This document shows positions 1-53,312 of a DNA stretch of 64,000 nt, piece by piece. This DNA is from Arenicola marina. Taxonomy: Eukaryota; Annelida; Polychaeta; Arenicolidae. The notes under the pieces are model-generated. The model saw only the letters and a list, made by a program, of their open reading frames with translations. It was not told where the DNA came from and searched no databases. The translations under genes and the position numbers were made by a program. Within the stretch, counting starts at the first letter, position 1, and every line of letters starts with the position of its first letter. Where the stretch lies: positions 68,020,119 to 68,084,118 of the forward strand of contig OZ025248.1 in NCBI GenBank assembly GCA_964019135.1, in the 5' to 3' direction.

Positions 1-1993
1 ATATTTTGAGCACGATAATCGCTCGACAAATCTTCCACTTATCTCTAAGTCTACTGGCGTAGCCTAAGTGGTGATTATGAATACGGCCCCTGGCCCTGAA
101 GCAGCCAACATTTCGTTCTATTTCATACTGTCTGTTTATCACAGTCCACCACAGACAGTGGAATGGAAGGTGGAGCCTGAGTTATACGGGCCGCACCGCG
201 CAGAGGACAGACCTCGGGAGAGTGGGGCGCCAGGCAATGACTCAGTGGGGAAGGGAGGGAAGAACGCAGCTGAAGACGCGAACAGGGGGAAGGGGTGGGG
301 GGTGGGGGTAGGTGTACACACGGGGAGCAGTGGGTTAGGGTGGGTGGAGAGAGGAAGGAGTAGAAGGAAGGGGGGGGGGATGAGTGAGTGAGGGGGTGGG
401 GGGTGGGGGGGGGATCGGTGTGAAGAAGGAAGATGCTACACATATGGCACCAGACAAATCAAGTTAACATGGTTGATGCGGTTGCAGGTTTTAAACGAGC
501 AACCAGCCAGGATTGAGGAACAAGGTTCAATCAAGTGTGTCAAGCTTAAAACCAACCAACCAATCATCGTGCGAACTGAATGAGTGTAGATATTCCGTTA
601 ATAAAAACCCTGCTCAGGTTAAACTGCAAGATGTGAAAAGACAGCACACATTTCACCCACACAAAGACATCAAGCACTCCACTCCAGTGAGATCCTCTCC
701 CTCCCCCGTCCCACCCGTTCCATCGGTTAGGGTAGCGCAGTGGGGTGGAGCAGGGGCAGGGGGAGAATGGGGAGGGGGGAGGGAGGAGAGGGGAGGAGGA
801 GAAGGGGATCATGGGCCAAACCCTAGGCCGACGTTACCATACGCCAAGCCAGACTCAGGGCGAAAGCCAAGCATATGTCGCTGCCGGCCACGTGTCTGAC
901 ACAAATGTAATTGAGGATATATATGTAGGCGCAGTCCGCCGGGTGTTGGCCGCCAAGCCTCCGACCTAAGTATCATATCTACCTCCTTCGCCACCAAATT
1001 TATTCCCTTTTATTCGTTAACAAAAAAGTAATCCGACGAGACAGGACGCGCATACGAGCGGCGGCCGACCTACATTAGTCATTACACCAGTAAGCGACAG
1101 TAAGTATAGACAAAATGTAGGCCAAGGTGCGTCGTCGGCTTACACCCGGGAGACACGCTGAAAGGCTAGCTTCTCTCTCTCCCTCTCAAGGACAGAACAC
1201 ACCGGTAAATTGACCGAAGAAGATCTATGGCCTGTATTTTATGACGAGAGAATAATGTTACAGGAAAAGGGGGGAGGGGAGGGGGTATGTCGAAATACCA
1301 ACACAAAGGGGATATCATCCCGGCATATATATTTCAGCATGTACACAGGACGCATGTGATTCTTATGCGTGTGCACTGCTAATACAGACTATTTTAGGCT
1401 GGGAAAACGGGGCCGGCTATTGTGCGCGGCCGCCCCGCTGTATCGCCGGGGGTTGCGGCAGCTACAGACATTAACCATGAGGGCTCTCTGACCTTCCACG
1501 CAAAATGACATCATCTGAGGGGAGAGCAAGGCGATAAATCTTGTCCATTTCAGCGATCTCCCGGCGCGCCCGTTAACCAGACAACCAGCGCGCGGCGTTG
1601 GTCCACGACCCACTTTGCTCGGCTCTGATTGGCCGGAATGTGGGTGGGTGTGTTGGAGGCCGCAGGCGCAGCGCGCTCGCCGTGGTGTCGATCAGCTGAT
1701 TCTGGCACGGTATCACCCGGCACAGGTGCCCGCGCACCAGCAGTCAATGTGAAGTCACGTAGAGACACAGCAACGCACCGTTACGTGCCGCCAGAGGCGT
1801 TATAATCAAGGCAAACTGTTTGCCAAGTCCAACTGTAGATCAACTTCCACACGTAAACCTGCATTTTTACGCCTGGTATGAATCAGTGAATGAAACTTCG
1901 CAGGGGTGTCTCTTTAATATGGGTCATTTTTTTACCATTTATTTTATTTTATTAATATAGCATTTAGGAATACAATACTGTACCAGAACGGTC
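1..1993. other. Gene-free CpG-rich flank
   Basis: I find no convincing exon here. Positions 240-420 are strongly G-rich on the plus strand, with several runs of four or more G that could form G-quadruplexes, and this also makes spurious proline/serine-rich frames on the other strand. Positions about 1,400-1,800 are rich in CpG and contain an inverted CCAAT motif (ctgattggcc) near 1,626. This could be a promoter, but no first exon could be tied to it. Confidence 0.5.
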
Positions 1994-2366
1994 CTTGCAT
2001 ATTGAGCTCTTTCTCGCCCAAACTAAAGAGGTCAAAATACAAATAAGAACCAGTCCTCGATTCATTCAAGATTTATTTTTCTTTCTCTATACTCCACGCA
2101 TGCCAAACTGCGAAATGGACTCTCTTAAACCTTAATTTACTACAAGTTTTCATTTTAGTGGTAAACGTCATCAGTTTGAGCGCTTCGCGATGCTTTGGTA
2201 TAAGTAGCAGTGCCGAGACAGTTCTGTGGTGTCCCGGGATAGACACGTTTGCCACATCACAGGTTTCTGAATTTATAAAATGAAACGATCGAGTTTTCTG
2301 CAATTTTTTATATACATTTCGCCTGGGCTTAGTATTGGCGGGAAAGAGCTCGATATGAAACTTTAA
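1994..2366. mobile_element. TTAA-type MITE, copy 1 (left end eroded)
   Basis: This is one of three related ~400-bp elements in the window (also 15,527-15,928 and 18,862-19,269). The shared body includes aaagaggtcaaaatacaaat near the left, gcttcgcgatgctttg in the middle and tcgcctgggctta near the right. The right terminus is tggcgggaaagagctcgata followed by tgaaactttaa, the inverse of the left terminus. In this copy the first bases (ttaaag) are lost and the inverted repeats carry several mismatches, so it looks like the oldest copy. It has no coding capacity; short frames in it are chance. Confidence 0.75.
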
Positions 2367-4021
2367 ATTTAGAGCGGGGGAAAGAGTGGGTGTGGGGGGT
2401 GCTACCCCTCGACATCACACAATATGTCCGGCCAATCTGGTTGGTCCAGAGCAGCCTCTATGTGCATAAACGTGGCCCAAAACGCCAACATTGCAATTCT
2501 GCTGACGTCAGGTAACTTAGATTCCTGAGTGCTCTTGAAACGTTTCAACTGCGGCAAACAATCAGGTGTATGATATCCGGCGTGCCTAGCCATTGTTAAG
2601 CACTGATAGTCTGGCAAATCAACCCATACATAGTTAGCCACCCGGCGACCATTGCTTCGTATGGGACATGCAAGACGCCGTATCAAAAAACCAATCCTCA
2701 AACGAGCCAATCGTCACCAATTAGAGACCTAATAACAATGAGACGAGGCTCTCGACAGACCGGTGTCAGGTGGTGTTACAACCTGAATAAATCAGCTGAA
2801 CACTTGACACCAAAGGGACACGCACCACAAGAGCGTGTACGAATTACGTACAGACATTTACCAATAAGAATAGTTTTGTGGTGACTCAACATACGATACA
2901 CATTGATCGTCGCAGCAATCGTATCTTGGACCTACGCTGTTCTACAATCATTGGTCGTACCTTGAAACATTGAAGACTTTACAATCCGTTAGAGGTGCAG
3001 ATACCAAGGTGTGTGTGTGTGTGTGTAGGGGGGGGGGGGTAATCCAGGGGGATGTCAAGTTTATGGGGTGTAAATTTCAACGGCAACTCCCCAATCAACC
3101 CCGCAAATGCAAAAATTTCAAGCGCGACTATCACAGTCACACCTTTTCAAAACCCAGAACCCCCCATACCTTTTCAAAATTCTGGACGAACCAATTTTAA
3201 CGATTTTGTGATGGCTCATTCAATGTCTCCTTTGTTTACCCAACAAGGGCCATAGGCGGACAACGCAGCATGCTTGACTTCAAAGTGTACAAAACCAACT
3301 GAAAGCTTTCGAAGCTGCAGTGAGAGGACTGAGAACCAGGTCAGGATACCAGTAATTCATACTGAGGGCGGATATGTTCAACAGCGATGGTCCAAGTCAT
3401 GTTGAAGACACGTACCAGGCTAAAACCGGGACGACCAACGAAATTGGTAAAATGTCTCGGCGAGGCTAGAAAAATACCCCTAGACAGTTCGATCCCGTCT
3501 GTGGTAATCCCGTTACGTCCCTTTACTGGCAGAGCGGCGGTAGGTCAAACAAGGCGCCAGTAGGCATCCCCATCAGAAGCACCTTGGCCCACACAGCCAT
3601 TATCCGGTTTTACAACCCGTCCGAAGAGGGAAAAAAAAAACTGTCGACCGGTCGACCTACTGGCCTGATCAACGGTTTCACCTGTCGATCTCTCGAGCGG
3701 GGGGCGGGGGGAGGAGGGAGGGAACGGGAACGGCGACGGAGGCGGAGGGTCTGGCGCGAAATCGCGTCGACGAGATGACGCAACACCGGGCAAGGCTTGC
3801 GCAGCAGATCATAACTCGCTTATACGGATGTAACGGGCGCTTTGTACATGATGTAAATAAACACGCAAGGCTGATAACCTGATGAATGCAGACAGCGTAT
3901 GTTTGAAAAAATTACGGTGTAGCGCGTTTGGGATATCAGATCCCGGATTTTACTTGACGATGCTGGGTGAACCGTCTCGCTGCAGCCAGGCCAGGAAGTG
4001 TAATGCAGCCGGGTGAAGGGT
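2367..4021. other. Gene-free stretch with simple repeats
   Basis: No exon is supportable. A (GT)n run followed by twelve or so G lies at about 3,009-3,040. A purine-rich patch lies at 3,695-3,750. Open frames here are short, differ in every phase and have no recognisable domain. Confidence 0.45.
2452..2500 (+). mobile_element. Possible SINE-B tail remnant
   Basis: The string tatgtgcataaacgtggccc and the following aaaacgccaacattgca match, with a few changes, the tail of the intact SINE at 55,846-56,034 (tatgtgcacaaaagtggcct then aaaacaccaacattcca). Only the tail is recognisable, so this is an old fragment. Confidence 0.4.
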
Positions 4022-7005: not shown

Positions 7006-7492
7006 GGGCTCTCCTGAAGCCTACTCCAGATGAGGACCGCTCTCTGACGCCTACCCCAGATGAGGACGGCTCTCTGACGCCTACCCCAGATGAGGACCGC
7101 TCTCTGACGCCTACCCCAGATGAGGACCGCTCTCTGACGCCTACCCCAGAGGAAGACTCTTTGATGCCCAATCCAGATGAGGACCGCTCTCTGAGGCCAA
7201 ATCTAGAAACGGACCGCTTTGACGCCCACCCTAGACGAGGACCGCTCTCTGACGTCCACCCTAGACGAGGACCGCTCTCTGACGCTCACCCTAAATTAGG
7301 ACGCTTTCTGACGCCCACCCTAGATGAGGACCGCTCTCTGACGCCCATTCTAAACGAGGACCGCTCTCTGACGCCCCTCTAACGGAGGACCGCTCTCTGA
7401 CGCATACCCTGACGCCCACGTTAAACGCCCACGCTGACCGAGGACCGCTCTTTGACACCCACGCTGACCGAGGACCGCTCTCTGACGCCCAC
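7006..7492. repeat. 30-bp minisatellite, ~16 copies
   Basis: The unit is gacgcctaccccagatgagg followed by accgctctct. The first five copies are almost identical; later ones diverge and vary in length. Because 30 is a multiple of three, one plus-strand frame reads a run of T-P-T-P-D-E-D-R-S-L repeats (6,987-7,382), and a minus frame reads R-E-R-S-S-S-G-V-G-V. No splice-flanked exon or unique domain surrounds it, so I treat it as non-coding. Confidence 0.9.
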
Positions 7493-23149: not shown

Positions 23150-23429
23150 GAACAATGAGGTGCTAGCAGCAAACAGAAGACACAGATTTCGTTGCCGCGT
23201 GATGTCGTTGCCAGGGAGTGGGGGGGTACTGCCGCCCGAGAGGAAGACTGCTATGGTGAACCCCACGCGGGGAGGGCTTCCTTTGACCCTCGATGACACC
23301 AAGATCCTGGGCAAGACGACCGAGAGACGGCGAGAGAAAGCCGTCCCGCCAACCAAGTTCCAGACACGTGCTTTCAAGACACTCACTAGCAACTGGACGC
23401 CTCTGGTCCACAAGCCCTCCAATAATCAG
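23150..23429 (+). CDS. ECT2L: ECT2L-like exon 1 of the model (N-terminus)
   Basis: The acceptor is ctctctccag before 23,150; the donor is cag then GTCAGC (GT at 23,430). The frame is open from the acceptor, with the first ATG at 23,202 (MSLPGSGGVLPP), which I take as the probable start because no upstream exon could be joined. The 76 residues are basic and probably disordered, with TTERRREK in the middle and NWTPLVHKPSNNQ at the end, the start of the conserved block ahead of the F-box. The last 45 bases together with the donor are the founder of the 49-bp minisatellite that follows. Confidence 0.75.
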
Positions 23430-24388
23430 GTCAGCAACCAACTGGACGCCCCTGGTCCACAAGCCGTTCAATAATCAGGTCAGGTGTCAAGTGGACGCCC
23501 CTGGTCCACAACACCTCCAAAAATCAGGTCAGGTGCCAACTGGACGCCCCTGGTCCACAAGACCAATAATCAGGTCAGATGTCAACTGGACGCCCCTGGT
23601 CCACAAGCCCTCCAATAATCTGGCCAGGTGTTAAGTGGACGCCCCTGGTCCACAAGACCAATAATTAGGTCAGATGTCAACTGGACACCCATGGTCCACA
23701 AGCCATATCCAATAATCAGGTCAGATGTCAACTGGACGCTCCTGGTCCACAAGCCCTCCAAGAATCAGGTCAGATGTGAACTGGACGCCCCTGGTCCCCA
23801 AGTCCTCCAATAATCAGGTCAGGTGTCAACTGGACACCCATGGTCCACATGCCTTCCAATAATCAGGTCAGGTGTCAACTGGACGCCCCTGGTCCACAAG
23901 CCCTCCAATAATCAGGTCAGGTGTCAACTGGACACCCATGGTCCACAAGCCCTCCAATGATCAGGTCAGGTGTCAACTGGACACCCATGGTCCACAAGCT
24001 CTCAAATACTCAGGTCAGGTGTCAACTAGACGCCCCTGGTCCACAAGCCTTCCAATAATCAGGTCAGGTTTCAACTAGACACCCACGGTCCACAAGCCCT
24101 CCAATAATAAGACCAGGTGTCAACTGGACACCCATGGCCCACAAGTCCTTCAATAATCAGCTCAGGTGTCAACTGGACACCCATATTCCACAAGCCCTCC
24201 AATAATCAGGTCCGGTGTCAACTGGACACCCATGGTCCACAAGCCCTCCAATAATCAGGCCAGGTGTCAACTGGACACCCATGGTCCACAAGCCGTCCAA
24301 TAATCAGGTCAGATGTCAACTGGACACCCATGGTCCACAAGCCCTTCAATAATCAGGTCAGGTGTCAACTGGACGCCCCTGGTCCACC
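23385..24388 (+). repeat. 49-bp 'exon end plus donor' minisatellite, ~20 copies
   Basis: The unit is aactggacgcccctggtcca then caagccctccaataatcag and gtcaggtgtc. The first copy is the coding end of exon 1 itself with its donor; about twenty further copies follow in intron 1, each repeating the exon-like part and the CAG/GTCAGG donor. Several copies are shortened (for example caagaccaataatcag at 23,557). Because 49 is not a multiple of three the copies cycle through all frames, which produces several short open frames that are not additional exons. Confidence 0.93.
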
Positions 24389-31791: not shown

Positions 31792-31827
31792 ATATTTCAA
31801 GAGCGGTGCGAACTTATATGTAACTGG
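31792..31827 (+). CDS. ECT2L: ECT2L-like exon 2 (36-bp microexon)
   Basis: It encodes IFQERCELICNW, phase 0 at both ends, between acceptor ttctccttccag and donor GTAAGT. It joins NNQ of exon 1 to FELWT of exon 3 and completes the conserved helix ahead of the F-box. The call rests on this continuity and on the strong splice sites, since 36 bp alone would not be persuasive. Confidence 0.72.
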
Positions 31828-32267: not shown

Positions 32268-32402
32268 TTTGAACTGTGGACCAACCATCAGCGTAAGAAG
32301 TTCCTGGACTTCTTATTTCGACAGTGCAACAAGTCTCAACTCTACTTCATACAGAACTGGTTCCGCGACCGCGTTCCACTGAGACATGTCGACTTCACAA
32401 GG
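32268..32402 (+). CDS. ECT2L: ECT2L-like exon 3 (block before the F-box)
   Basis: 45 codons, phase 0 at both ends; acceptor cccttag, donor GTACGA. It begins FELWTNHQRKKFLDFLF and ends LRHVDFTR. It is basic and helical, with Q-R-K-K and Cys-Asn-Lys-Ser-Gln motifs that I associate with the segment just ahead of the F-box in ECT2L. The final VDFTR leads directly into the F-box of exon 4. Confidence 0.82.
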
Positions 32403-33384: not shown

Positions 33385-33489
33385 GTGCTGCCGAGGTTCT
33401 TGTCACTGTACATATTTTCCTTCCTGGACCCGCGCAGTTTGTCGAGGGCCTCTATGGTTTGTTGGAACTGGAAGTTCTTCTCGGAACAA
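33385..33489 (+). CDS. ECT2L: ECT2L-like exon 4 (F-box core)
   Basis: 35 codons, phase 0 at both ends; acceptor atcggacag, donor GTGAGT. It encodes [20 protein letters not shown] followed by an R-A-S-M-V-C-W-N-W segment ending FFSEQ. The leucine/proline start (L-P-x-x-x-x-x-x-I-F-S-F-L), D-P-R-S-L and the V-C-x-x-W signature fit the F-box, which binds Skp1 in SCF ubiquitin ligases. This is the best-supported domain of the gene. Confidence 0.9.
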
Positions 33490-33816: not shown

Positions 33817-33957
33817 GATGTGGTGTGGCAGTCCAAGTGCATGCGGCAGGGCTGGTACCTGCCCTACACCCCGGGGGACGGCGAGTACGGGGCCTGGAAG
33901 CGACACTACATCGCCTGCACCCACACCCTGGACATGGACGTGCTGGCCAGGACCAAG
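33817..33957 (+). CDS. ECT2L: ECT2L-like exon 5 (conserved block after the F-box)
   Basis: 47 codons, phase 0 at both ends; acceptor ctccag, donor GTGAGC. It begins [20 protein letters not shown] and goes on with [18 protein letters not shown]. The Trp/Tyr-rich motif in this position is what I recall of ECT2L after its F-box, and it is a main reason for choosing that family over other F-box proteins. The start at the gatgtg codon was chosen because it continues SEQ from exon 4 without a stop. Confidence 0.85.
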
Positions 33958-38300: not shown

Positions 38301-38309
38301 TCCTTCTAT

Positions 38310-38396
38310 CTTTCGAATCGCATGGTCCCAGGAGGTTCCTTGTCCCGGTGTTATCCATGTGTGTCCAAAAGTGGCATAATTTATTCCACTGTCCAT
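38310..38396 (+). mobile_element. SINE-B tail fragment
   Basis: ttcgaatcgcatggtcccag, then gaggttccttg, a tgtgtgtccaaaagtggc core and a final tccactgtcc match the B box and tail of the intact copy at 55,846-56,034. The 5' part is cut off by the end of the 35-bp array. Confidence 0.6.
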
Positions 38397-38440
38397 CCTT
38401 TCTACCCCTTCAACCCTTGACCCTGCCCCTCCATAATGAT

Positions 38441-38677
38441 AGGCTCGACAGCTCAGTGGGCTAGAGTGCTCTGGCCACCTGAGAGCCTAACGGCACGTGG
38501 ATCCATGGTTCGAGCCCCGCTGTGACCAATGCCTGTGTGGTCGCACGATAAAGATCCCATGTCCTTCTTCGCAAAGAGTAGGGGTTACCCCCGGAGACAT
38601 GGCTCTACTCTTCCTTCTCCCGTTGACGCGATATGACCACAAGTGGTTAAAGCGTCCTGAATATACAACGAACCATA
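38441..38677 (+). mobile_element. tRNA-derived SINE family A, plus-strand copy
   Basis: The head cagctcagtgggctagagtg serves as an A box, and ggttcgagccc at 38,507-38,517 is a perfect B box. The body has aaagatcccatgtccttctt and gcaaagagtaggggttaccc, as in the copies near 4.1 and 5.2 kb. It ends about 50 bp upstream of the acceptor of exon 6. Confidence 0.85.
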
Positions 38678-38729
38678 AGGATAGGCAACAAGTTAACGGA
38701 CGATCTGACGCATGCAGTGTTTGTTGCAG

Positions 38730-38808
38730 TCTGAGCTTTATGGGTCCATTGGTGACGGCAAGAAGACAACCAAAAGGAAGGGCAACAGGTTGACATTGGA
38801 GGAGAGCA
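38730..38808 (+). CDS. ECT2L: ECT2L-like exon 6 (basic linker)
   Basis: 26 codons plus one base (phase 0 in, 1 out); acceptor gtttgttgcag, donor GTAAGT. It encodes SELYGSIGDGKKTTKRKGNR and LTLEES. It is a lysine-rich linker, probably disordered, and the kind of segment that could serve as a nuclear localisation signal. It is supported mainly by splice sites and phase. Confidence 0.7.
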
Positions 38809-39202
38809 GTAAGTCGTATTGTAAATAACAGACTAGTGACTTCTTGAGCTATTGTCCTATTGGGTTTATTGGTGACTGCTTGACATTAAATAGTACAATG
38901 TATGTTAATCTTAAATATCCTAGAGTAAATCGTGAAACATTAGTCTAGACCCATAATTTTGACAAAAAATGAGATCAACTTGTATTCGTTACGTTATAAA
39001 CAGGCGGTTACAGCAAAGATAGTCTAGGTGATTGTCATTGGGATATTGGTTCAAGACGCGTCTACGCTGGCTACTAACTCCGTAACGTTTGAAGGGTTTC
39101 AGCCGATAAGGAGACTAGATTTAGTGGTAAAGATATAAAGCAGTGACCACCCCCCCCCGTGCCTACATTATAATGCCCCCCCCCCCCCCGCGTCCTATCT
39201 AG
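38809..39202 (+). other. Intron 6
   Basis: 394 bp. Two C runs lie just before the acceptor (39,149-39,157 and 39,176-39,189). Confidence 0.6.
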
Positions 39203-39465
39203 GGGAGGTACTGGAGCTACGGCCGCCGTGGCTCCCCACCGACCATGACCCGAAGGACCTAGAAAGGTCGGCCAAGGCGATATTGGAGGAGTTTAACCCC
39301 AACGACCCCCTGTGCCACACCTCCATGCGGCAACACCACAACCAGTTCGGGATCGTCAAGACCGGACTTGTGAGGACCGGACTGATGAGGCAGTCGGCCC
39401 CGGGCGGTCTGGCGGAGTACGGGCTCCAGCAGAGCGCTAGGCGACAGCAGCACCGGATCCTCGAT
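39203..39465 (+). CDS. ECT2L: ECT2L-like exon 7 (linker)
   Basis: 263 bp, phase 1 in and 0 out; acceptor cgtcctatctag, donor GTAGGT. It begins REVLELRPPWLPTDHD and contains EEFNPNDPLCHTSMRQHHNQ and a Gly/Arg-rich repeat-like part (VKTGLVRTGLMRQ), then LAEYGLQQSARRQQHRILD. I recognise no domain. It is charged and probably flexible. Confidence 0.8.
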
Positions 39466-39777
39466 GTAGGTCACCAAAACCCATCACCAAATTTGGAAAT
39501 TATCTTTTTTTTAAGCAGGTCAGCAGTTGTGTGGCGCTGATGGAGGAGTGGTTTTATCAAACCTTGGCGTTGTCGACTTTAATGGTCTGTGTCTGTAAAT
39601 GCCTAGCTACGAGCTTTTTGCACTGCTGGTGAGATTGGTGTCTGCTCATTGGTTAGTCCTGAGATGGGGACGGCCATGATATCATTTACATAATTACGTC
39701 TGCAAATGTCCTGTGAAAATTCTTGCCTTGTATATGATGTTTATTGACGTATTTTATATGCCCGGTAGGGTTGTTTA
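39466..39777 (+). other. Intron 7, unique part
   Basis: About 310 bp between the donor and the array, without recognisable elements. Confidence 0.5.
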
Positions 39778-40706
39778 CTCTTGTTAACAGTTTCCTTACG
39801 CCCCCCGCTAGGGTTTATGTTTACACTTCTCTTTTCATGCCCCGATATGGTTAATGTTTACACTTGTTTACACTTCCTTTGCCATGCCCCGCTAGGGTTA
39901 ATCTTTACACTTGTTTACACTTCTTTTCATGCCCCGATATGGTTAATGTTTATACTTGTTAACACTTCCCTTACGCTCCCGCTAGGGTTAATGTTTACAA
40001 TTGTTTACACTTCCCTTTACCCAGTTCCTCTAGTGATACTGTTTTCAATTGTTTACACTTCCCTTGCCCGGTCCCGCTGGAGTTACTGTTTACACTTGTT
40101 TACAGTTCTCTTACGCTCCCCGCTAGGATTAATGTTTACACTAGTTAACACTTCTCTTTCTATACTCTGATATGGTTAATGTTTACACGTGTTAACACTT
40201 CCCTTACGGTCCCCGCTAGGGTTAATGTTTACACTTGGTAACACTTCCCATACTCTCCCCGCTAGGGTTAATTTTTCCACTTGTTCGCACTTACCTTACT
40301 CTCCCCACTAGGGTTAATGTTTACACTGGTTAAGTTTCCTTACGCTCCCCGCTAGGGTTAATGTTTACTATTGTTAACACTTCCCTTAGGCTCCCCGCTG
40401 GGGTTAATGTTTACCCTTGTTAGCACTTACTTTATGCTCCCCGCTAGGGTTAATGTTTACACTTGGTAACACTTCCCATACTCTCCCCGCTAGGGTTAAT
40501 TTTTCCACTTGTCAACAGTTGCCTTACGCTCCCCACTAGGGTGTATGTTTACACTTGTTAACACTTCCCTTACGCATCCCACTGGGGGTTAATGTGTACC
40601 CTTGTTAAAGCTGCTTGTCGAGCTTTTCCAGCTTGTCGGGCTTACACTGGTGGTTTGCAGTTGTTTACACAACCCTAGGATTAATGTTTACACTTGTTTA
40701 CACTTC
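39778..40706 (+). repeat. ~46-bp minisatellite abutting the acceptor of exon 8, ~20 copies
   Basis: The unit is ttaatgtttacacttgttaa then cacttcccttacgctccccgctaggg. Each unit holds a pyrimidine tract ending in CTAG, an acceptor-like site. The array runs straight into the real acceptor, where the last unit reads ttaatgtttacacttgttta then cacttcgctcag before GCTGAGG. The real splice site is therefore one more, slightly shortened, member of the series. Confidence 0.92.
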
Positions 40707-40712
40707 GCTCAG

Positions 40713-40864
40713 GCTGAGGACGATCCTGACTTGCGGCCGACTCGCCAGAGGGAGCCACTGTCCCACAGTATAGAGCTGGAGAGCTTTGAGGAGCGCCGTA
40801 TGATAGACCTGGTGCGCCAGCCCTGGGAACCCCCGCCCTCAGCCAAGATGATGTCACCACGACG
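40713..40864 (+). CDS. ECT2L: ECT2L-like exon 8 (acidic linker)
   Basis: 152 bp, phase 0 in and 2 out; acceptor cacttcgctcag, donor GTCAGC. It encodes AEDDPDLRPTRQREPLSHSI, then ELESFEERRMIDLV and a proline-rich end (WEPPPSAKMMSP). No domain is recognised. The open frame seen upstream of the acceptor belongs to the array. Confidence 0.8.
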
Positions 40865-41217
40865 GTCAGCTCACTGCCCCATCTCCTTCCTAATAATGTT
40901 TATATTAACCTGGTCACTCCTGGTCCTTCTCGCAATGTTTTTTGTATTCCCCATGGAATTAATTTCCAAATCTGATTCGCTTTTTTGTTACATCTTGTAG
41001 ATATTTTGTCCTATTAATGCCACATCGTGACTCAGGTCGTGTAGAGAAGTCACGCCATTCATATTTGATTGTCGGGATAGTCATGGGGGACACAGTGAAA
41101 GCTAGAGGAATCTGTTACATATATAGTTGCATACGTATCGCTCTATAATCACTTTTTATATAATACACCTTGATCTAATGAATGCAACGAATGTGTTCTT
41201 CCTTCTGTCTGTCACAG
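40865..41217 (+). other. Intron 8
   Basis: 353 bp, no arrays. The acceptor region ccttctgtctgtcacag is strong. Confidence 0.6.
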
Positions 41218-41350
41218 ACCAAATCTTGCTGGGGGTGGCGACTATCCGTTACCATGGAAGCACAACACGCGCCAGCCAATCAGCAAGAGCTACCCGAACC
41301 AAGCCAACCCTCGAATTATCTTCATATCATCCAGAGTTCCCGCTGCCGAT
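41218..41350 (+). CDS. ECT2L: ECT2L-like exon 9 (start of DUF4347-like domain)
   Basis: 133 bp, phase 2 in and 0 out; donor GTAAGT. It encodes RPNLAGGGDYPLPWKHNT and ends PRIIFISSRVPAAD. The strand-forming IIFI followed by S-S-R-V-P is like the start of the DUF4347 family as I remember it. The function of that family is not known to me; it is an alpha/beta fold found in large secreted bacterial proteins and in some animal proteins. Confidence 0.83.
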
Positions 41351-41689
41351 GTAAGTCACGTGGTCACCCCTCGCGCCACCTGCCGGCGTTTGGAATATTT
41401 CGACAGTGAGATATTGCGACAGATGTGGTTTTTTAAAGCTCCAGTTGTTGCCATAGATGGAGGGGAAGGGGCGCGGCGTGGCCATGAAATCCTTCGGATG
41501 GCACCCGTGTTCACCTGCGGCTTTTACGCTATCATTATGAAATAAATAGTTAGGATATATTAAATGGATGATAGTACAATAGATGACAGTACAACTACGT
41601 GTAAATAAGGTGACAATAGCCATCCTGGCCTGTGTACACTTCTTGTTGTGAAATACTAGCACTGATGCCTAGATTGCCTGAAGTTAATA
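41351..41689 (+). other. Intron 9, unique start
   Basis: About 340 bp of unique sequence between the donor and the long array. Confidence 0.5.
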
Positions 41690-44600
41690 CAGTTTATACT
41701 TAGTGAGAGCTGTGGTGAGCGCTGTATGTTTGAGGCCGGATGGTGAGCGCTGTGTTGAGGCCGGTTGGTGAGCGCTGTGTTTGAGGCCGGTCGGTGAGCG
41801 CTGTGTGTTTGGGGCCGGTTGGTGAGCCTTGTGTTGAGGCCGGTTGGTGAGCACTGTGTGTTGAGGCCGGTTGGTGAGCGCTGTGTGTTGAGGCCGGTTG
41901 GTGAGCGCTGTGTGTTTGAGGCCGGTTGGTGAGCGCTGTGTGTTTGGGGCCGGTTGGTGAGCCTTGTGTTGAGGCCGGTTGGTGAGCACTGTGTGTTGAG
42001 GCCGGTTAGTGAGCGCTGTGTGTTGAGGCCGGTTGGTAAGCCCTGTGTGTTGAGGCCGGTTGGTGAGCGCTGTGTGTTGAGGCCGGTTGGTGAGCCTTGT
42101 GTGTCTGAGACCGGTTGGTGAGCCCTGTGTTGAGGCCGGTTGGTGAGCCCTGTGTTGAGGCCGGTTGGTGAGCGCTGTGTTGAGGCCGGTTGGTGAGCCC
42201 TGTGTGTTGAGGCCGGTTGGTGAGCACTGTGTATTTGAGGCCGGTTGGTGAGCGCTGTGTTGAGGCCGGTTGGTGAGCGCTGTGTTGAGGCCGGTTGGTG
42301 AGCCCTGTGTTGAGGCCGGTTGGCGAGTGTTGTGTCTGAGACCGGTTGGTGAGCGCTGTGTTTGAGGCCGGTTGGTGAGCGCTGTGTTTGAGGCCGGTTG
42401 GTGAACGCTGTGTTTGAGGCCGATTGGTGAGCCCTGTGTGTTGCGGCCGGTCGGTGAGCCCTGTGTTGAGGCCGGTTGGTGAGCGCTGTGTTGAGGCCGG
42501 TTGGTGAGCGCTGTGTTGAGGCCGGTTGGTGAGCGCTGTGTTGAGGCCGGTTGGTGAGCGCTGTGTTGAGGCCGGTTGGTGAGCCTTGTGTGTCTGAGAC
42601 CGGTTGGTGAGCCCTGTGTTGAGGCCGGTTGGTGAGCCCTGTGTTGAGGCCGGTTGGTGAGCCCTGTGTGTTGCGGCCGGTCGGTGAGCCCTGTGTGTTG
42701 AGGCCGGTTGGTGAGCGCTGTGTTGAGGCCGGTCGGTGACCGCTGTGTGTTGAGGCCGGTTGGTGAGCCTTGTGTGTCTGAGACCGGTTGGTGAGCCCTG
42801 TGTTGAGGCCGGTTGGTGAACCCTGTGTTGAGGCCGGTTGGTGAGCGCTGTGTGTTGAGGCTTGTTGGTGAGCCCTGTGTTGAGGCCGGTTGGTGAACCC
42901 TGTGTTGAGGCCGGTTGGTGAGCGCTGTGTTGAGGCCGGTTGGTGAGCGCTGTGTTTGAGGCCGGTTGGTGAGCGCTGTGTTTGAGGCCGGTTGGTGAGC
43001 GCTGTATTTGAGGCCGGTTGGTGAGCGCTGTGTTTGAGGCCGGTTGGTGAGCCCTGTGTGTTGAGGCCGGTTGGTGAGCCCTGTGTGTTGCGGCCGGTCG
43101 GTGACCGCTGTGTGTTGAGGCCGGTTGGTGAGCGCTGTGTTGAGGCCGGTCGGTGACCGCTGTGTGTTGAGGCCGGTTGGTGAGCCTTGTGTGTCTGAGA
43201 CCGGTTGGTGAGCCCTGTGTTGAGGCCGGTTGGTGAACCCTGTGTTGAGGCCGGTTGGTGAGCGCTGTGTGTTGAGGCTTGTTGGTGAGCCCTGTGTTGA
43301 GGCCGGTTGGTGAACCCTGTGTTGAGGCCGGTTGGTGAGCGCTGTGTTGAGGCCGGTTGGTGAGCGCTGTGTTTGAGGCCGGTTGGTGAGCGCTGTGTTT
43401 GAGGCCGGTTGGTGAGCCCTGTGTTTGAGGCCGGTTGGTAAGCGCTGTGTGTTGAGGCCGGTTGGTGAGCCCTGTGTTGAGGCCGGTTGGTGAGCCCTGT
43501 GTGTCTGAGACCGGTTGGTGAGCCCTGTGTTGAGGCCGGTTGGTGAACCCTGTGTTGAGGCCGGTTGGTGAGCGCTGTGTTTGAGGCCGGTTGGTGAGCG
43601 CTGTGTTTGAGGCCGGTTGGTGAGCCCTGTGTTTGAGGCCGGTTGGTAAGCGCTGTGTGTTGAGGCCGGTTGGTGAACCCTGTGTTGAGGCCGGTTGGTG
43701 AGCCCTGTGTTTGAGGCCGGTTGGTGAGCGCTGTGTTTGAGGCCGGTTGGTGAGCCCTGTGTTGAGGCCGGTTGGTGAACCCTGTGTTGAGGCCGGTTGG
43801 TGAGCCCTGTGTTGAGGCCGGTTGGTGAACCCTGTGTTGAGGCCGGTTGGTGAGCCCTGTGTTGAGGCCGGTTGGTGAGCGCTGTGTTGAGGCCGGTTGG
43901 TGAGCGCTGTGTTGAGGCCGGTTGGTGAACCCTGTGTTGAGGCCGGTTGGTGAGCCCTGTGTGTTTGAGGCCGGTTGGTAAGCGCTGTGTGTTGAGGCCG
44001 GTTGGTGAACCCTGTGTTGAGGCCGGTTGGTGAGCCCTGTGTTGAGGCCGGTTGGTGAGCGCTGTGTTGAGGCCGGTTGGTGAGCGCTGTGTTTGAGGCC
44101 GGTTGGTGAGCCCTGTGTTGAGGCCGGTTGGTGAGCGCTGTGTTGAGGCCGGTTGGTGAGCGCTGTGTTGAGGCCGGTTGGTGAACCCTGTGTTGAGGCC
44201 GGTTGGTGAGCGCTGTGTTGAGGCCGGTTGGTGAGCGCTGTGTTTGAGGCCGGTTGGTGAGCGCTGTGTTTGAGGCCGGTTGGTGAGCCCTGTGTTTGAG
44301 GCCGGTTGGTAAGCGCTGTGTGTTGAGGCCGGTTGGTGAACCCTGTGTTGAGGCCGGTTGGTGAGCCCTGTGTTTGAGGCCGGTTGGTGAGCGCTGTGTT
44401 TGAGGCCGGTTGGTGAGCGCTGTGTTTGAGGCCGGTTGGTAAGCGCTGTGTGTTGAGGCCGGTTGGTGAGCCCTGTGTTGAGGCCGGTTGGTGAGCGCTG
44501 TGTTGAGGCCGGTTGGTGAACGCTGTGTGTTGAGGCCGGGTGGTGAGCCCTGTGTGTTGAGGCTTGTTGGTGAGCCCTGTGTGTTGAGGCCGGTTGGTAA

Positions 44601-47600
44601 ACGCTGTGTTTGAGGCCTGTTGGTGAGCGCTGTGTGTTTGAGGCCGGGTGGTGATCGCTGTGTTTGAGGCCGGTTGGTAAGCGCTGTGTTTGAGGCCTGT
44701 TGGTGAGCCCTGTGTTTGAGGCCGGTGGGTGTGCGCTGTGTTGAGGCCGGTTGGTGAACGCTGTGTGTTGAGGCCGGTTGGTGAGCGCTGTGTTTGAGGC
44801 CGGTTGGTGAGCGCTGTGTGTTTGAGGCCGGGTGGTGATCGCTGTGTTTGAGGCCGGTTGGTAAGCGCTGTGTTTGAGGCCTGTTGGTGAGCCCTGTGTT
44901 TGAGGCCGGTGGGTGTGCGCTGTGTTGAGGCCGGTTGGTGAACGCTGTGTGTTGAGGCCGGTTGGTGAGCGCTGTGTGTTCAGGCCGGTTGGTGAGCGCT
45001 GTGTTTGAGGCCGGTTGGTGAGCGCTGTGTGTTTGAGGCCGGGTGGTGATCGCTGTGTTTGAGGCCGGTTGGTAAGCGCTGTGTTTGAGGCCTGTTGGTG
45101 AGCCCTGTGTTTGAGGCCGGTTGGTGTGCGCTGTGTTGAGGCCGGTTGGTAAACGCTGTGTTTGAGGCCGGTTGCTGAGCGCTGTGTGTTTGAGGCCGGG
45201 TGGTGATCGCTGTGTTTGAGGCCGGTTGGTAAGCGCTGTGTTTGAGGCCTGTTGGTGAGCCCTGTGTTTGAGGCCGGTTGGTGTGCGCTGTGTTGAGGCC
45301 GGTTGGTGAACGCTGTGTGTTGAGGCCGGTTGGTGTGCGCTGTGTTGAGGCCGGTTGGTAAACGCTGTGTTTGAGGCCGGTTGGTGAGCGCTGTGTGTTT
45401 GAGGCCGGGTGGTGATCGCTGTGTTTGAGGCCGGTTGGTAAGCGCTGTGTTTGAGGCCTGTTGGTGAGCCCTGTGTTTGAGGCCGGTTGGTGTGCGCTGT
45501 GTTTGAGGCCGGTTGGTGAGCGCTGTGTGTTGAGGCCGGTTGGTGAGCGCTGTGTTTGAGGCCGGTTGGTGAACGCTGAGGCCGGTTGGTGAGCGCTGTG
45601 TTTGAGACCGTTTGGTGAGCGCTGTGTTGAGGCCGGTTGGTGAGCGCTGGTTTGAGGCCGGTTGGTGAGCGCTGTATGTTGAGGCCGGGTGGTGATCGCT
45701 GTGTTTGAGGCCGGTTGGTGAGCGCTGTGTTTGAGGCCGGTTGGTGAACGCTGTGTATTTGGGGCCGGTTGGTGAGCGCTGTGTGTTGAGGCCGGTTGGT
45801 GAGCCCTGTGTTTGAGGCCGGTTGGTGAGCGCTGTGTGTTGAGGCCGGTTGGTGAGCACTGTGTGTTGAGGCTGGTTGGTGAGCGCTGTGTTTGAGGCCG
45901 GTTGGTGAGCGCTGTGTTTGAGGCCGGTTGGTGAGCGCTGTGTTTGAGGCCGGTTGGTGAACGCTGTGTTTGAGGCCGGTTGATGATCGCTGTGTTTGAG
46001 GCCGGTTGGTGAGCGCTGTGTTTGAGGCCGGTTGGTGAGCGCTGTGTTTGAGGCCGGTTGGTGAACGCTGTGTGTTGAGGCTGGTTGGTGAGCGCTGTGT
46101 TTGAGGCCGGTTGGTGAGCGCTGTGTTTGAGGCCGGTTGGTGAGCGCTGTGTTTGAGGCCGGTTGGTGAGCGCTGTGTTTGAGGCCGGTTGGTGAGCCCT
46201 GTGTTTGAGGCCGGTTGGTGAGCGCTGTGTGTTGAGGCCGGTTGGTGAGCACTGTGTGTTGAGGCTGGTTGGTGAGCGCTGTGTTTGAGGCCGGTTGGTG
46301 AGCGCTGTGTTTGAGGCCGGTTGGTGAGCGCTGTGTTTGAGGCCGGTTGGTGAACGCTATGTTTGAGGCCGGTTGATGATCGCTGTGTTTGAGGCCGGTT
46401 GATGATCGCTGTGTTTGAGGCCGGTTGGTGAGCGCTGTGTTTGAGGCCGGTTGGTGAGCGCTGTGTTTGAGGCCGGTTGGTGAACGCTGTGTTTGAGGCC
46501 GGTTGATGATCGCTGTGTTTGAGGCCGGTTGGTGAGCGCTGTGTTTGAGGCCGGTTGGTGAGCGCTGTGTTTGAGGCCGGTTGGTGAGCGCTGTGTTTGA
46601 GGCCGGTTGGTGAACGCTGTGTTTGAGGCCGGTTGATGATCGCTGTGTTTGAGGCCGGTTGGTGAGCGCTGTGTTGAGGCCGGTTGATGATCGCTGTGTT
46701 TGAGGCCGGTTGGTGAGCGCTGTGTTTGAGGCCGGTTGATGATCGCTGTGTTTGAGGCCGGTTAGTGAGCGCTGTGTTTGAGGCCGGTTGATGATCGCTG
46801 TGTTTGAGGCCGGTTGGTGAGCGCTGTGTTTGAGGCCGGTTGATGATCGCTGTGTTTGAGGCCGGTTGGTGAGCGCTGTGTTTGAGGCCGGTTGATGATC
46901 GCTGTGTTTGAGGCCGGTTGGTGAGCCCTGTGTTTGAGGCCGGTTGGTGAGCGCTGTGTGTTGAGGCCGGTTGGTGAGCGCTGTGTTTGAGGCCGGGTGG
47001 TGTGCGCTGTGTTTGAGGCCGGTTGGTGAGGGCTGTGTTTGAGGCCGGTTGGTGAGCGCTGTGTTAAGGCCGGTTGGTGAGGGCTGTGTGTTGAGGCCGG
47101 TTGGTGAGGGCTGTGTTAAGGCCGGTTGGTGAGCGCTGTGTTTGAGGCCGGTTGGCGAGCGCTGTGTTTGAGGCCGGTTGGTGAGCGCTGTGTTGAGGCC
47201 GGTTGGTGCGCGCTGTGTTTGAGGCCGGTTGGTGAGCACTGTGTGTTGAGGCCGGTTGGTGAGCACTGTGTGTTGAGGCCGGTTGGTGCGCGCTGTGTTT
47301 GAGGCCGGTTGGTGAGCACTGTGTGTTGAGGCCGGCTGGTGAGCGCTGTGTGTTGAGGCCGGTTGGTGAGGGCTGTGTTTGAGGCCGGTTGGTGAGCGCT
47401 GTGTTTGAGGCCGGTTGGTGAGCGCTGTGTGTTGAGGCCGGTTGGTGAGCACTGTGTGTTGAGGCCGGTTGGTGAGCACTGTGTGTTGAGGCCGGTTGGT
47501 GAGCGCTGTGTGTTGAGGCCGGTTGGTGAGCGCTGTGTTTGAGGCCGGTTGGTGAGCGCTGTGTGTTGAGGCCGGTTGGTGAGCGCTGTGTGTTGAGGCC

Positions 47601-50600
47601 GGTTGGTGAGCGCTGTGTGTTGAGGCCGGTTGGTGAGCGCTGTGTTTGAGGCCGGTTGGCGAGCGCTGTGTTTGAGGCCGGTTGGTGAGCGCTGTGTTGA
47701 GGCCGGTTGGTGCGCGCTGTGTTTGAGGCCGGTTGGTGAGCACTGTGTGTTGAGGCCGGTTGGTGAGCACTGTGTGTTGAGGCCGGTTGGTGCGCGCTGT
47801 GTTTGAGGCCGGTTGGTGAGCACTGTGTGTTGAGGCCGGCTGGTGAGCGCTGTGTGTTGAGGCCGGTTGGTGAGGGCTGTGTTTGAGGCCGGTTGGTGAG
47901 CGCTGTGTTTGAGGCCGGTTGGTGAGCGCTGTGTGTTGAGGCCGGTTGGTGAGCACTGTGTGTTGAGGCCGGTTGGTGAGCACTGTGTGTTGAGGCCGGT
48001 TGGTGAGCGCTGTGTGTTGAGGCCGGTTGGTGAGCGCTGTGTTTGAGGCCGGTTGGTGAGCGCTGTGTGTTGAGGCCGGTTGGTGAGCGCTGTGTGTTGA
48101 GGCCGGTTGGTGAGCGCTGTGTGTTGAGGCCGGTTGGTGAGCGCTGTGTTTGAGGCCGGGTGGTGTGCGCTGTGTTTGAGGCCGGTTGGTGAGCGCTGTG
48201 TTTGAGGCCGGTTGGTGAGCGCTGTGTTGAGGCCGGTTGGTGAGCGCTGTGTTTGAGGCCGGTTGGTGAGCGCTGTGTTTGAGGCCGGTTGGTGAGCCCT
48301 GTGTTGAGGCCGGTTGGTGAGGGCTGTGTTTGAGGCCGGGTGGTGAGCCCTGTGTGTTTGAGGCCGGTTGGTGAGCGCTGTGTGTTGAGGCCGGTTGGTG
48401 AGGGCTGTGTTTGAGGCTGGTTGGTGAGCGCTGTGTTTGAGGCCGGTTGGTGAGCGCTGTGTTTGAGGCCGGTTGGTAAGCGCTGTGTGTTGAGGCCGGT
48501 TGGTGAGGGCTGTGTTTGAGGCCGGTTGGTGAGCCCTGTGTTTGAGGCCGGTTGGTAAGCCCTGTGTTGAGGCCGGTTGGTGAGCGCTGTGAGTTAAGGC
48601 CGGTTGGTGAGCGCTGTGTGTTGAGGCCGGTTGGTGAGCACTGTGTATTTGAGGCCGGTTGGTGAGCGCTGTGTTGAGGCCGGTTGGTGAGCGCTGTGTG
48701 TTGAGGCCGGTTGGTGAGCCCTGTGTATTTGAGGCCGGTTGGTGAGCGCTGTGTTTGAGGCCGGTTGGTGAGCGCTGTGTTTGAGGCCTGTTGGTGAGCC
48801 CTGTGTTTGAGGCTGGTTGGTGAGCGCTGTGTTGAGGCCGGTTGGTGAGCCCTGTGTATTTGAGGCCGGTTGGCGAGCGCTGTGTGTTGAGGCCGGTTGG
48901 TGAGCGCTGTGTTTGAGGCCGGTTGGTGAACGCTGAGGCCGGTTGGTGAGCGCTGTGTTGAGGCCGGTTGGTGAGCGCTGGTTTGAGGCCGGTTGGTGAG
49001 CGCTGTGCGTTGAGGCCGGTTGGTGAGCGCTGTGTTGAGGCCGGTTGATGATCGCTGTGTTTGAGGCCGGTTGGTGAGCGCTGTGTTTGAAGCTGGTTGG
49101 TGAGCGCTGTGTGTTGAGGCCGGTTGGTGAGCGCTGTGTTTGAGGCCGGTTGGTGAGCCCTGTGTTGAGGCCGGTTGGTGAGCGCTGTGAGTTGAGGCCG
49201 GTTGGTGAGCGCTGTGTGTTGAGGCCGGTTGGTGAGCGCTGTGTTTGAGGCCGGTTGATGATCGCTGTGTTTGAGGCCGGTTGGTGAGCGCTGTGTTTGA
49301 GGCCGGTTGATGATCGCTGTGTTTGAGGCCGGTTGGTGAGCCCTGTGTTTGAGGCCGGTTGGTGAGCGCTGTGTGTTGAGGCCGGTTGGTGAGCGCTGTG
49401 TTTGAGGCCGGGTGGTGTGCGCTGTGTTTGAGGCCGGTTGGTGAGGGCTGTGTTTGAGGCCGGTTGGTGAGCGCTGTGTGTTGAGGCCGGTTGGTGAGCG
49501 CTGTGTTGAGGCCGGTTGGTGAGGGCTGTGTGTTGAGGCCGGTTGGTGAGGGCTGTGTTAAGGCCGGTTGGTGAGCGCTGTGTTTGAGGCCGGTTGGCGA
49601 GCGCTGTGTTTGAGGCCGGTTGGTGAGCGCTGTGTTGAGGCCGGTTGGCGAGCGCTGTGTTTGAGGCCGGTTGGTGCGCGCTGTGTTTGAGGCCGGTTGG
49701 TGAGCACTGTGTGTTGAGGCCGGTTGGTGAGCACTGTGTGTTGAGGCCGGTTGGTGAGCGCTGTGTGTTGAGGCCGGTTGGTGAGCGCTGTGTTTGAGGC
49801 CGGTTGGTGAGCGCTGTGTGTTGAGGCCGGTTGGTGAGCGCTGTGTGTTGAGGCCGGTTGGTGAGCGCTGTGTGTTGAGGCCGGTTGGTGAGCGCTGTGT
49901 TTGAGGCCGGGTGGTGTGCGCTGTGTTTGAGGCCGGTTGGTGAGCGCTGTGTTTGAGGCCGGTTGGTGAGCGCTGTGTTGAGGCCGGTTGGTGAGCGCTG
50001 TGTTTGAGGCCGGTTGGTGAGCGCTGTGTTTGAGGCCGGTTGGTGAGCGCTGTGTTTGAGGCCGGTTGGTGAACGCTGTGTGTTGAGACTGGTTGGTGAG
50101 CGCTGTGTTTGAGGCCGGTTGGTGAGCGCTGTGTTTGAGGCCGGTTGGTGAGCGCTGTGTTTGAGGCCGGTTGGTGATCGCTGTGTTTGAGGCCGGTTGA
50201 TGATCGCTGTGTTTGAGGCCGGTTGGTGAGCCCTGTGTTTGAGGCCGGTTGGTGAGCGCTGTGTGTTGAGGCCGGTTGGTGAGCACTGTGTGTTGAGGCT
50301 GGTTGGTGAGCGCTGTGTTTGAGGCCGGTTGGTGAGCGCTGTGTTTGAGGCCGGTTGGTGAGCGCTGTGTTTGAGGCCGGTTGGTGAACGCTGTGTTTGA
50401 GGCCGGTTGATGATCGCTGTGTTTGAGGCCGGTTGATGATCGCTGTGTTTAAGGCCGGTTGGTGAGCGCTGTGTTTGAGGCCGGTTGGTGAGCGCTGTGT
50501 TTGAGGCCGGTTGGTGAGCGCTGTGTTTGAGGCCGGTTGGTGAACGCTGTGTTTGAGGCCGGTTGATGATCGCTGTGTTTGAGGCCGGTTGGTGAGCGCT

Positions 50601-53185
50601 GTGTTTGAGGCCGGTTGGTGAGCGCTGTGTTTGAGGCCGGTTGGTGAGCGCTGTGTTTGAGGCCGGTTGGTGAACGCTGTGTTTGAGGCCGGTTGATGAT
50701 CGCTGTGTTTGAGGCCGGTTGGTGAGCGCTGTGTTTGAGGCCGGTTGATGATCGCTGTGTTTGAGGCCGGTTGGTGAGCGCTGTGTTTGAAGCCGGTTGA
50801 TGATCGCTGTGTTTGAGGCCGGTTGGTGAGCGCTGTGTTTGAGGCCGGTTGATGATCGCTGTGTTTGAGGCCGGTTGGTGAGCGCTGTGTTTGAGGCCGG
50901 TTGGTGAACGCTGTGTTTGAGGCCGGTTGATGATCGCTGTGTTTGAGGCCGGTTGATGATCGCTGTGTTTGAGGCCGGTTGGTGAGCGCTGTGTTTGAGG
51001 CCGGTTGGTGAGCGCTGTGTTTGAGGCCGGTTGGTGAGCGCTGTGTTTGAGGCCGGTTGGTGAACGCTGTGTTTGAGGCCGGTTGATGATCGCTGTGTTG
51101 AGGCCGGTTGGTGAGGGCTGTGTTAAGGCCGGTTGGTGAGCGCTGTGTTTGAGGCCGGTTGATGATCGCTGTGTTTGAGGCCGGTTGGTGAGCGCTGTGT
51201 TTGAGGCCGGTTGATGATCGCTGTGTTTGAGGCCGGTTGGTGAGCCCTGTGTTTGAGGCCGGTTGGTGAGCGCTGTGTGTTGAGGCCGGTTGGTGAGCGC
51301 TGTGTTTGAGGCCGGGTGGTGTGCGCTGTGTTTGAGGCCGGTTGGTGAGGGCTGTGTTTGAGGCCGGTTGGTGAGCGCTGTGTGTTGAGGCCGGTTGGTG
51401 AGCGCTGTGTTGAGGCCGGTTGGTGAGGGCTGTGTGTTGAGGCCGGTTGGTGAGGGCTGTGTTAAGGCCGGTTGGTGAGCGCTGTGTTTGAGGCCGGTTG
51501 GCGAGCGCTGTGTTTGAGGCCGGTTGGTGAGCGCTGTGTTGAGGCCGGTTGGCGAGCGCTGTGTTTGAGGCCGGTTGGTGCGCGCTGTGTTTGAGGCCGG
51601 TTGGTGAGCACTGTGTGTTGAGGCCGGTTGGTGAGCACTGTGTGTTGAGGCCGGTTGGTGAGCGCTGTGTGTTGAGGCCGGTTGGTGAGCGCTGTGTTTG
51701 AGGCCGGTTGGTGAGCGCTGTGTGTTGAGGCCGGTTGGTGAGCGCTGTGTGTTGAGGCCGGTTGGTGAGCGCTGTGTGTTGAGGCCGGTTGGTGAGCGCT
51801 GTGTTTGAGGCCGGGTGGTGTGCGCTGTGTTTGAGGCCGGTTGGTGAGCGCTGTGTTTGAGGCCGGTTGGTGAGCGCTGTGTTGAGGCCGGTTGGTGAGC
51901 GCTGTGTTTGAGGCCGGTTGGTGAGCGCTGTGTTTGAGGCCGGTTGGTGAGCGCTGTGTTTGAGGCCGGTTGGTGAACGCTGTGTGTTGAGACTGGTTGG
52001 TGAGCGCTGTGTTTGAGGCCGGTTGGTGAGCGCTGTGTTTGAGGCCGGTTGGTGAGCGCTGTGTTTGAGGCCGGTTGGTGATCGCTGTGTTTGAGGCCGG
52101 TTGATGATCGCTGTGTTTGAGGCCGGTTGGTGAGCCCTGTGTTTGAGGCCGGTTGGTGAGCGCTGTGTGTTGAGGCCGGTTGGTGAGCACTGTGTGTTGA
52201 GGCTGGTTGGTGAGCGCTGTGTTTGAGGCCGGTTGGTGAGCGCTGTGTTTGAGGCCGGTTGGTGAGCGCTGTGTTTGAGGCCGGTTGGTGAACGCTGTGT
52301 TTGAGGCCGGTTGATGATCGCTGTGTTTGAGGCCGGTTGATGATCGCTGTGTTTAAGGCCGGTTGGTGAGCGCTGTGTTTGAGGCCGGTTGGTGAGCGCT
52401 GTGTTTGAGGCCGGTTGGTGAGCGCTGTGTTTGAGGCCGGTTGGTGAACGCTGTGTTTGAGGCCGGTTGATGATCGCTGTGTTTGAGGCCGGTTGGTGAG
52501 CGCTGTGTTTGAGGCCGGTTGGTGAGCGCTGTGTTTGAGGCCGGTTGGTGAGCGCTGTGTTTGAGGCCGGTTGGTGAACGCTGTGTTTGAGGCCGGTTGA
52601 TGATCGCTGTGTTTGAGGCCGGTTGGTGAGCGCTGTGTTTGAGGCCGGTTGATGATCGCTGTGTTTGAGGCCGGTTGGTGAGCGCTGTGTTTGAAGCCGG
52701 TTGATGATCGCTGTGTTTGAGGCCGGTTGGTGAGCGCTGTGTTTGAGGCCGGTTGATGATCGCTGTGTTTGAGGCCGGTTGGTGAGCGCTGTGTTTGAGG
52801 CCGGTTGGTGAACGCTGTGTTTGAGGCCGGTTGATGATCGCTGTGTTTGAGGCCGGTTGATGATCGCTGTGTTTGAGGCCGGTTGGTGAGCGCTGTGTTT
52901 GAGGCCGGTTGGTGAGCGCTGTGTTTGAGGCCGGTTGGTGAGCGCTGTGTTTGAGGCCGGTTGGTGAACGCTGTGTTTGAGGCCGGTTGATGATCGCTGT
53001 GTTGAGGCCGGTTGGTGAGGGCTGTGTTAAGGCCGGTTGGTGAGCGCTGTGTTTGAGCCCGGGTGGTGAGCGCTGTGTTTGAGGCCGGTTGGTGAGCGCT
53101 GTGTTTGAGGCCGGTTGGTGAGCCCTGTTTACTGAGGTCGGTTGGTGAGCGCTGTTTACTGAGGCTGGTTGGTGACCGCTGTGTG
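41690..53185 (+). repeat. ~26-bp minisatellite of ~11.5 kb, ~450 copies, in intron 9
   Basis: The unit is gaggccggttggtgagcgct followed by gtgttt, gtgtt or gtgtgtt (25-27 bp). Variants with gatgatcg, gagggct, gtgcgcg or gagcact define sub-blocks. A large higher-order duplication is visible: about 49,220-51,150 recurs at 51,124-53,058, offset 1,904 bp, with identical 242-residue antisense frames inside each copy (49,558-50,286 and 51,462-52,190). The array runs to within about 11 bp of the acceptor of exon 10. A 2,099-residue minus-strand frame (41,684-47,983) and others read T-N-R-P-Q-H-T-A-L repeats only because the unit lacks stops. Confidence 0.97.
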
Positions 53186-53196
53186 TTGTGTTACAG

Positions 53197-53312
53197 ATCC
53201 TCGTGGATGCCGTTAACTTTGGAGTGATCCCCATCGTGTTTGAGTACGAGGGGACGACTCTCGAGTCCCTGGCCAGCCAGCTGGACCTGTGTCTGCAGGG
53301 ACGGAGTGCACA
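53197..53312 (+). CDS. ECT2L: ECT2L-like exon 10 (DUF4347-like domain, part 2)
   Basis: 116 bp, phase 0 in and 2 out; acceptor gtgtgttgtgttacag, donor GTCAGT. It encodes ILVDAVNFGVIPIVFEYEGT and TLESLASQLDLCLQGRSAQ. The alternation of strand (VIPIVFEYE) and helix (LESLASQLDLCL) continues the alpha/beta fold begun in exon 9. Confidence 0.86.

Follow-up and report, generated by a model that had tools for sequence, protein, structure and literature searches.

Tandem copies of an exon end and its splice donor in the ECT2L gene of an annelid-like genome

How does a transcript find its 5' splice site when the same exon end and donor are offered about twenty times in a row, and how does such a series arise? 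The question is raised by a tandem array in the window, the 64,000-nucleotide stretch analysed here (C1:68020119-68084118 of an 867-Mb assembly in 762 contigs; the exon A array and the ECT2L exons and edge arrays placed in it below lie on the forward strand). A preliminary description had reported a 49-bp unit, made of an exon end and its donor, that repeats about twenty times into the intron, and both points held. Tandem Repeats Finder (TRF) placed the array at 23390-24387 (period 49, 20.4 copies, 86% matches, score 1418). Splitting it into units gave 20 full units, 17 of 49 nt, two of 46 nt and one of 51 nt, and a 21-bp partial unit at 24367-24387; mean pairwise identity was 87%. Aligned with the exon, the first unit (23391-23439) comprised 39 bases of exon and 10 of intron. 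Units 2-20 are all intronic and make up 19 decoys. Over the exon-derived bases, a single substitution separates the exon copy from the unit consensus, CCT versus CCC, which is proline either way. A 24-base probe across the exon-intron junction had 17 copies (at least 18/24 matching) within the next 3 kb of intron, while each of 50 shuffled versions had none in the same 3 kb. In a search of the genome, the matches listed (at least 11, such counts being lower bounds) all fell inside the array itself.

Judged by homology, the host gene of the array is ECT2L, an F-box/RhoGEF gene. Exon A (23150-23429) was delimited by its open frame, acceptor, donor and the homology of its end; it has an ATG at 23202 and ends in ...SNWTPLVHKPSNNQ. 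The previously proposed exon end at 23429 was borne out, as GTCAGC follows (the native donor, 23430-23435) and homology runs across the junction without a gap. The junction peptide KPSNNQ/IFQER was gapless in 12 of 12 aligned homologues, which were picked out of 120 listed, and KPSN-x-Q followed by x-F-x-E-R was found again in distant animals. The donor had been given as CAG/GTCAGG; this is right for many decoys, most of which carry GTCAGG or GTCAGA, but not for the native donor. A donor of the GTC type is an ordinary form, since 4 of 20 donors of the ECT2L gene start this way (A, F, H and Q) and the accessible text on earthworm metallothionein genes gives the donor consensus GTYAGK (PMC12783039). 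The label "exon 1" is doubtful, because the acceptor-like tttccttctctctccag lies upstream of exon A. A further upstream exon is therefore likely, and exon A, though probably the first coding exon, would not be where the transcript begins.

The next exon, 36 nt long (IFQERCELICNW, 31792-31827), sits 8.4 kb downstream of exon A and is followed by exons B (32268-32402, found by tblastn), C (33385-33489, carrying the F-box) and D (33817-33957, by homology). All of these joins are in phase 0 with ag...gt borders. The joined peptide matched solved ECT2L (PDB 11xu, residues 57-207) without a gap at E 3.5e-58, and exon C matched an F-box-like domain (E 1.8e-8), which places the F-box near the N-terminus as expected of ECT2L. 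Exons E (39203-39465), F (40713-40864), G (41218-41350), H (53197-53312), I (53717-53901), J (54711-54800), K (56191-56373) and L (57038-57141) were assigned by joining phases, open frame and homology. An exon is absent from the model between D and E, where phases do not join, and residues expected between exons L and N were not found in the homology search. Exons N to U lie just downstream of the window, with the frame open through to the stop, and C-terminal portions of PF00621-annotated ECT2L proteins, the RhoGEF part, matched collinearly just past the window (tblastn). FBXO16, a short F-box protein that lacks the RhoGEF part, was ruled out as host, as the gene continues into these ECT2L exons. 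The 623-aa gene model matched ECT2L proteins across animals among the matches listed (best 120 of 354), in a search that scored only the 7997 candidates with most shared words. Other searches added little: Rfam gave no matches, Pfam gave no families in six-frame translations of 38304-41713 and 53185-59280, one frame had a single weak match in PDB, and tblastn with 120 proteins returned mostly noise.

In gene trees of 25 and 16 rows, in which Capitella teleta is the sole named annelid and no row is a named brachiopod or nemertean, ECT2L grouped with Capitella at support 100/99. In the 16-row tree this pair joined five molluscs, again at 100/99. A tree constrained to pair ECT2L with Branchiostoma was rejected (p-AU 1.18e-12); identity to B. 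belcheri ECT2L was 42%. Amphioxus was accordingly discarded as the source, and with these rows the animal can be placed no more closely than as an annelid-like lophotrochozoan.

The peptide at the end of exon A is shared, without gaps, by ECT2L and FBXO16 of distant animals. The exon end is thus old and served as the source of the array. The near identity of exon end and unit would also fit the reverse, an exon end supplied by the intronic minisatellite, but the same shared peptide speaks against it and leaves it only the faintest chance. We regard it as likely that an intronic minisatellite arose from the end of exon A, that its first donor is the functional one, and that the decoys are largely a neutral by-product of a minisatellite-rich genome. 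A tandem duplication of the exon end with its donor would have founded the array, which would then have grown and been partly homogenised by ordinary minisatellite turnover. Assemblies often mis-size arrays, so that the array or its repeat number could be an artefact; here the units differ from one another by 1 to 13 bases, with private changes, and we hold mis-assembly to be very improbable. A coding repeat was ruled out, as the frame stops inside the first intronic unit.

Differences among the units bear on this history. Two linked changes are common to 10 of the 19 decoys, all from the seventh unit onward, and units farther apart are slightly less similar (Mantel r 0.22, p 0.019), as would be expected for spreading within the array. 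Against such spreading, adjacent units are hardly closer to each other (6.2 differences) than all pairs are (6.5). Mean mismatches per column among the 19 decoys are alike in the exon-derived (1.54) and intron-derived (1.50) parts. The GT columns have 2 and 3 mismatches, so GT has been neither purged nor kept. The decoys therefore carry no visible constraint; they appear to be mere potential cryptic donors, probably lacking a function.

Between 23479 and 24362, unit splitting placed 19 decoy donor positions, the first at 23479 and the last at 24357, and GT is kept in 15 of them (lost at 23623, 24112, 24161 and 24259). With a donor score matrix, nine decoys scored above the native donor and four more came within 0.1 bit of it. 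The earlier statement that each unit offers a near-identical donor thus agrees with 15/19 decoys for GT and with 13/19 for score. By this measure, donor strength does not explain why the first donor should be chosen. The other expectation, that use of a later donor would change the frame by 49-bp steps, hardly matters. An in-frame TAA (23472-23474), reached when the first donor is skipped, comes ahead of the first decoy donor at 23479, and because of it all decoy products would end the protein at one point.

Decoy products would keep exon junctions downstream of this stop, an arrangement that marks a transcript for decay. We favour position as the basis of the choice: the first copy, adjoining the exon body to which acceptor and enhancers belong, would win through exon definition, the decoys would be passed over, and a transcript spliced at a decoy, carrying the early stop, would be removed by nonsense-mediated decay. 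The same features could be given a regulatory meaning, in which splicing at decoys happens at an appreciable rate, each product meets the common stop and decays, and the copy number tunes ECT2L output. Retention of GT in 15 of 19 decoys behind a stop that precedes them all would suit such a poison-donor array, as would exon L, where all 13 decoy acceptors examined likewise lead to a stop. The decoy donors show no sign of conservation, however, and most introns are expected to hold a stop soon after the exon anyway, so that we consider this role improbable.

RNA structure might select the first donor instead, if the GGTGTC of each decoy paired with GAC(G/A)CC in the unit that follows and so hid the donor. 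The native intron has CAAC where decoys carry the pairing bases, and the predicted opening energy of the native donor ranked 1-3 of 16 GT donors in all 12 settings. This easier predicted opening leaves room for a structural cause. With U1 pairing added, however, the native donor ranked 1-8 of 16. Changing the native CAAC to GTGT shifted its opening energy only from 2.18 to 2.89 kcal/mol, CAAC placed in decoys made 3 of 15 harder and not easier to open, and the decoy at 24308 is predicted to be about as open as the native donor. Identical units in a myosin gene (L040, described below) could not be distinguished by local pairing either. Structural hiding as the main cause is weakened by these predictions, and we rate it as rather unlikely, in preference to which we retain position and decay.

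The array at exon A is not the only one at an ECT2L exon edge. Among the 42 edges of 21 exons, seven had adjacent copies above 50 shuffled probes. With 24-base probes the copies numbered 17 at the A donor, 8 at the L acceptor, 2 at the L donor, 5 at the Q donor, 44 at the T acceptor and 22 at the stop-codon end; the S donor, with a single copy, is counted among the seven edges but forms no array. The array at 56707-56991 copies the acceptor and the start of exon L (TATAG/GACAAG...; 8 copies at 18/24 or better). At the other end of exon L, a 44-bp array of 3.1 copies (57133-57267) begins in the last 9 bases of the exon and its donor. This is the weakest case, with only two copies at 18/24 or better, and it is borderline: its best copy matched 18/24, where controls reached at most 17 in one run and 15 in another.

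The remaining arrays lie on C1 just past the downstream end of the window, in a stretch we call L009. At exon T, a 60-bp unit holding the acceptor and the start of the exon is repeated 45 times (L009:5327-7967; best copy 24/24). Exact words mark 28 decoy acceptors there, of which seven are in frame and none keeps the frame open throughout exon T. The array at exon Q (39 bp x 33, L009:3271-4555) begins 2 bases past the donor and repeats that donor, with GT lost in most of 16 copies that have the exact downstream word. A 57-bp unit repeated 23 times (L009:8422-9776) consists of the last ECT2L coding bases and the stop (WITLIEDTVRAAVQESS*), and this array extends downstream of the gene. As it copies an edge without a splice site, a splice site is not needed for such an array. 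Two further arrays lie in ECT2L introns. A 26-bp x 440 array (41713-53184), whose unit contains the donor-like GGTGAGC, fills almost a whole intron and stops 12 bases before exon H. Upstream of exon F, a 46-bp array (39840-40608) has a unit that resembles the intron end at that exon; with a 24-base probe, its copies were not above control.

Exon-edge arrays were also found in myosin genes. A myosin search gave 77 matches and 10 loci, and two of the 16 exon matches sampled in those loci have arrays at their donor edges, counted without a shuffled control. In L040 (C12) the exon ends ...NNYLLEK/GTAGGC, and an array of period 62 bp at 1623-3174 repeats the exon end ...KGDPIGGHINNYLLEK with the donor GTAGGC, of which the locus holds 20 exact copies. 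Three decoy units are identical to the native unit over 62/62 bases, so local sequence cannot decide the donor in this gene. In L039 (C7, minus strand) the exon ends ...ILEANPVMEG with donor GTAAGC, and about 12 copies follow with a 32-bp period (1824-2196). The first in-frame stop precedes the second donor in L040 and follows it in L039; a stop ahead of the decoys is therefore not general. Other copies in the sample lay in the flanks of L035 and of both L036 exons, and upstream of one L039 exon, with the L035 array and the first L036 array starting inside the intron. Elsewhere, at C4:367768-384767, myosin-head exon matches recur about 1 kb apart, which suggests a muscle myosin gene with alternative exons.

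Are exon edges then preferred sites for such arrays, or are they hit by chance? Tandem arrays occupy 63% of 22900-73900. In 20 evenly spaced 10-kb stretches (L013-L032), which sample genome-wide array density on C1 only, they occupy a mean of 36% (median 25%), and three of the 20 are wholly tandem. There are 20 arrays in 22900-73900, and four contain an exon edge by their TRF extent. With the best-scoring TRF periods, 2.99 edge arrays were expected against these four (P 0.34). With basic periods, which were assigned by hand, 1.48-1.67 were expected, and P was 0.054-0.077 for four arrays, 0.012-0.020 for five, once the L acceptor array is included although it does not reach its edge, and 0.002-0.004 for six, with the Q donor array, whose start lies 2 bases beyond the edge, included as well. 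The excess over chance is not firm, since P ranges from 0.34 to 0.002 depending on which periods are used and which arrays are counted. We read the edge arrays as the remainder of random founding after selection has removed arrays within coding sequence. Should exon edges be preferred founders, something tied to exon borders or splicing would start the duplication. The seven of 42 ECT2L edges, the two of 16 myosin exons and the lower P values for five and six arrays lean that way; the values for TRF periods and for four arrays, the hand-assigned basic periods and the copied stop-codon end, which lacks a splice site, lean against it. We consider preferred founding unlikely, though less so than structural hiding.

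Arrays derived from exon boundaries are known as mirages in amphioxus, a term that the preliminary description had put forward and that is in published use (PMC3087553, PMC3902484). According to the portions of these papers available, mirages occur at Adh3, the globins BflGb6 and BflGb9 and other genes (PMC3087553) as well as at PGBD5 (PMC3902484), and they are reported not to disturb splicing. Their length is further described as unstable between haplotypes or tissues (PMC3087553). The exon A array is likewise a minisatellite-like series in which an exon-intron border is copied in tandem and, in the one assembly analysed, has the sequence features of a mirage as the available text of PMC3087553 gives them. 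There, mirages sit at donors or acceptors and the splice signal survives in many of their units, though not in every one, as GT is kept here in 15/19. Unlike those mirages, as far as these portions describe them, the ECT2L arrays come from an animal placed with Capitella and not from a cephalochordate, reach 20 copies at exon A and 45 at another exon, number several per gene and include one at a stop-codon end. Mirage-type arrays are thus not confined to cephalochordates. We propose that the exon A array works as the amphioxus mirages do. It has several counterparts in this annelid-like genome, where minisatellites are rich.

Internal tandem repeats at human exon-intron boundaries also overlap the exon border; in the available part of that report they differ among recent paralogues and can give rise to novel introns that transcripts support (PMC2812944). 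Earthworm metallothionein introns likewise hold large minisatellites in an annelid, but the accessible text does not describe these as copies of exon borders (PMC12783039). By title or opening of the abstract, no boundary-derived minisatellite was found for an annelid among the papers listed. Compared with the literature so found, the phylum, the copy numbers, the presence of several arrays in one gene and the stop-end version seem to be new.

Mirage-type arrays may follow wherever minisatellites are rich. They offer natural tests of how the spliceosome chooses one site among near-identical ones, the L040 myosin being an example, and they are a warning that gene models in such genomes may mistake decoy copies for exons. 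A far-reaching reading would have exon edges amplified genome-wide, with decoy number a heritable and fast-changing dial, occasional use of poison sites setting transcript loss, and splicing reading position, not sequence; as a whole we think this a long shot.

Repeats of other kinds were noted in passing. A 30-bp x 16 repeat in the window (7008-7492) is partly open as a ten-residue repeat (DRSLTPTPDE), its coding status being putative. At C5:5402476-5437356 there are five kinase copies of equal score, spaced by about 8.5 kb. On small contigs such as C443, C465, C504, C330 and C652, kinase matches are interrupted by in-frame TAA and TAG only, as if stops were reassigned in the organism they came from, which might be a companion or a contaminant.
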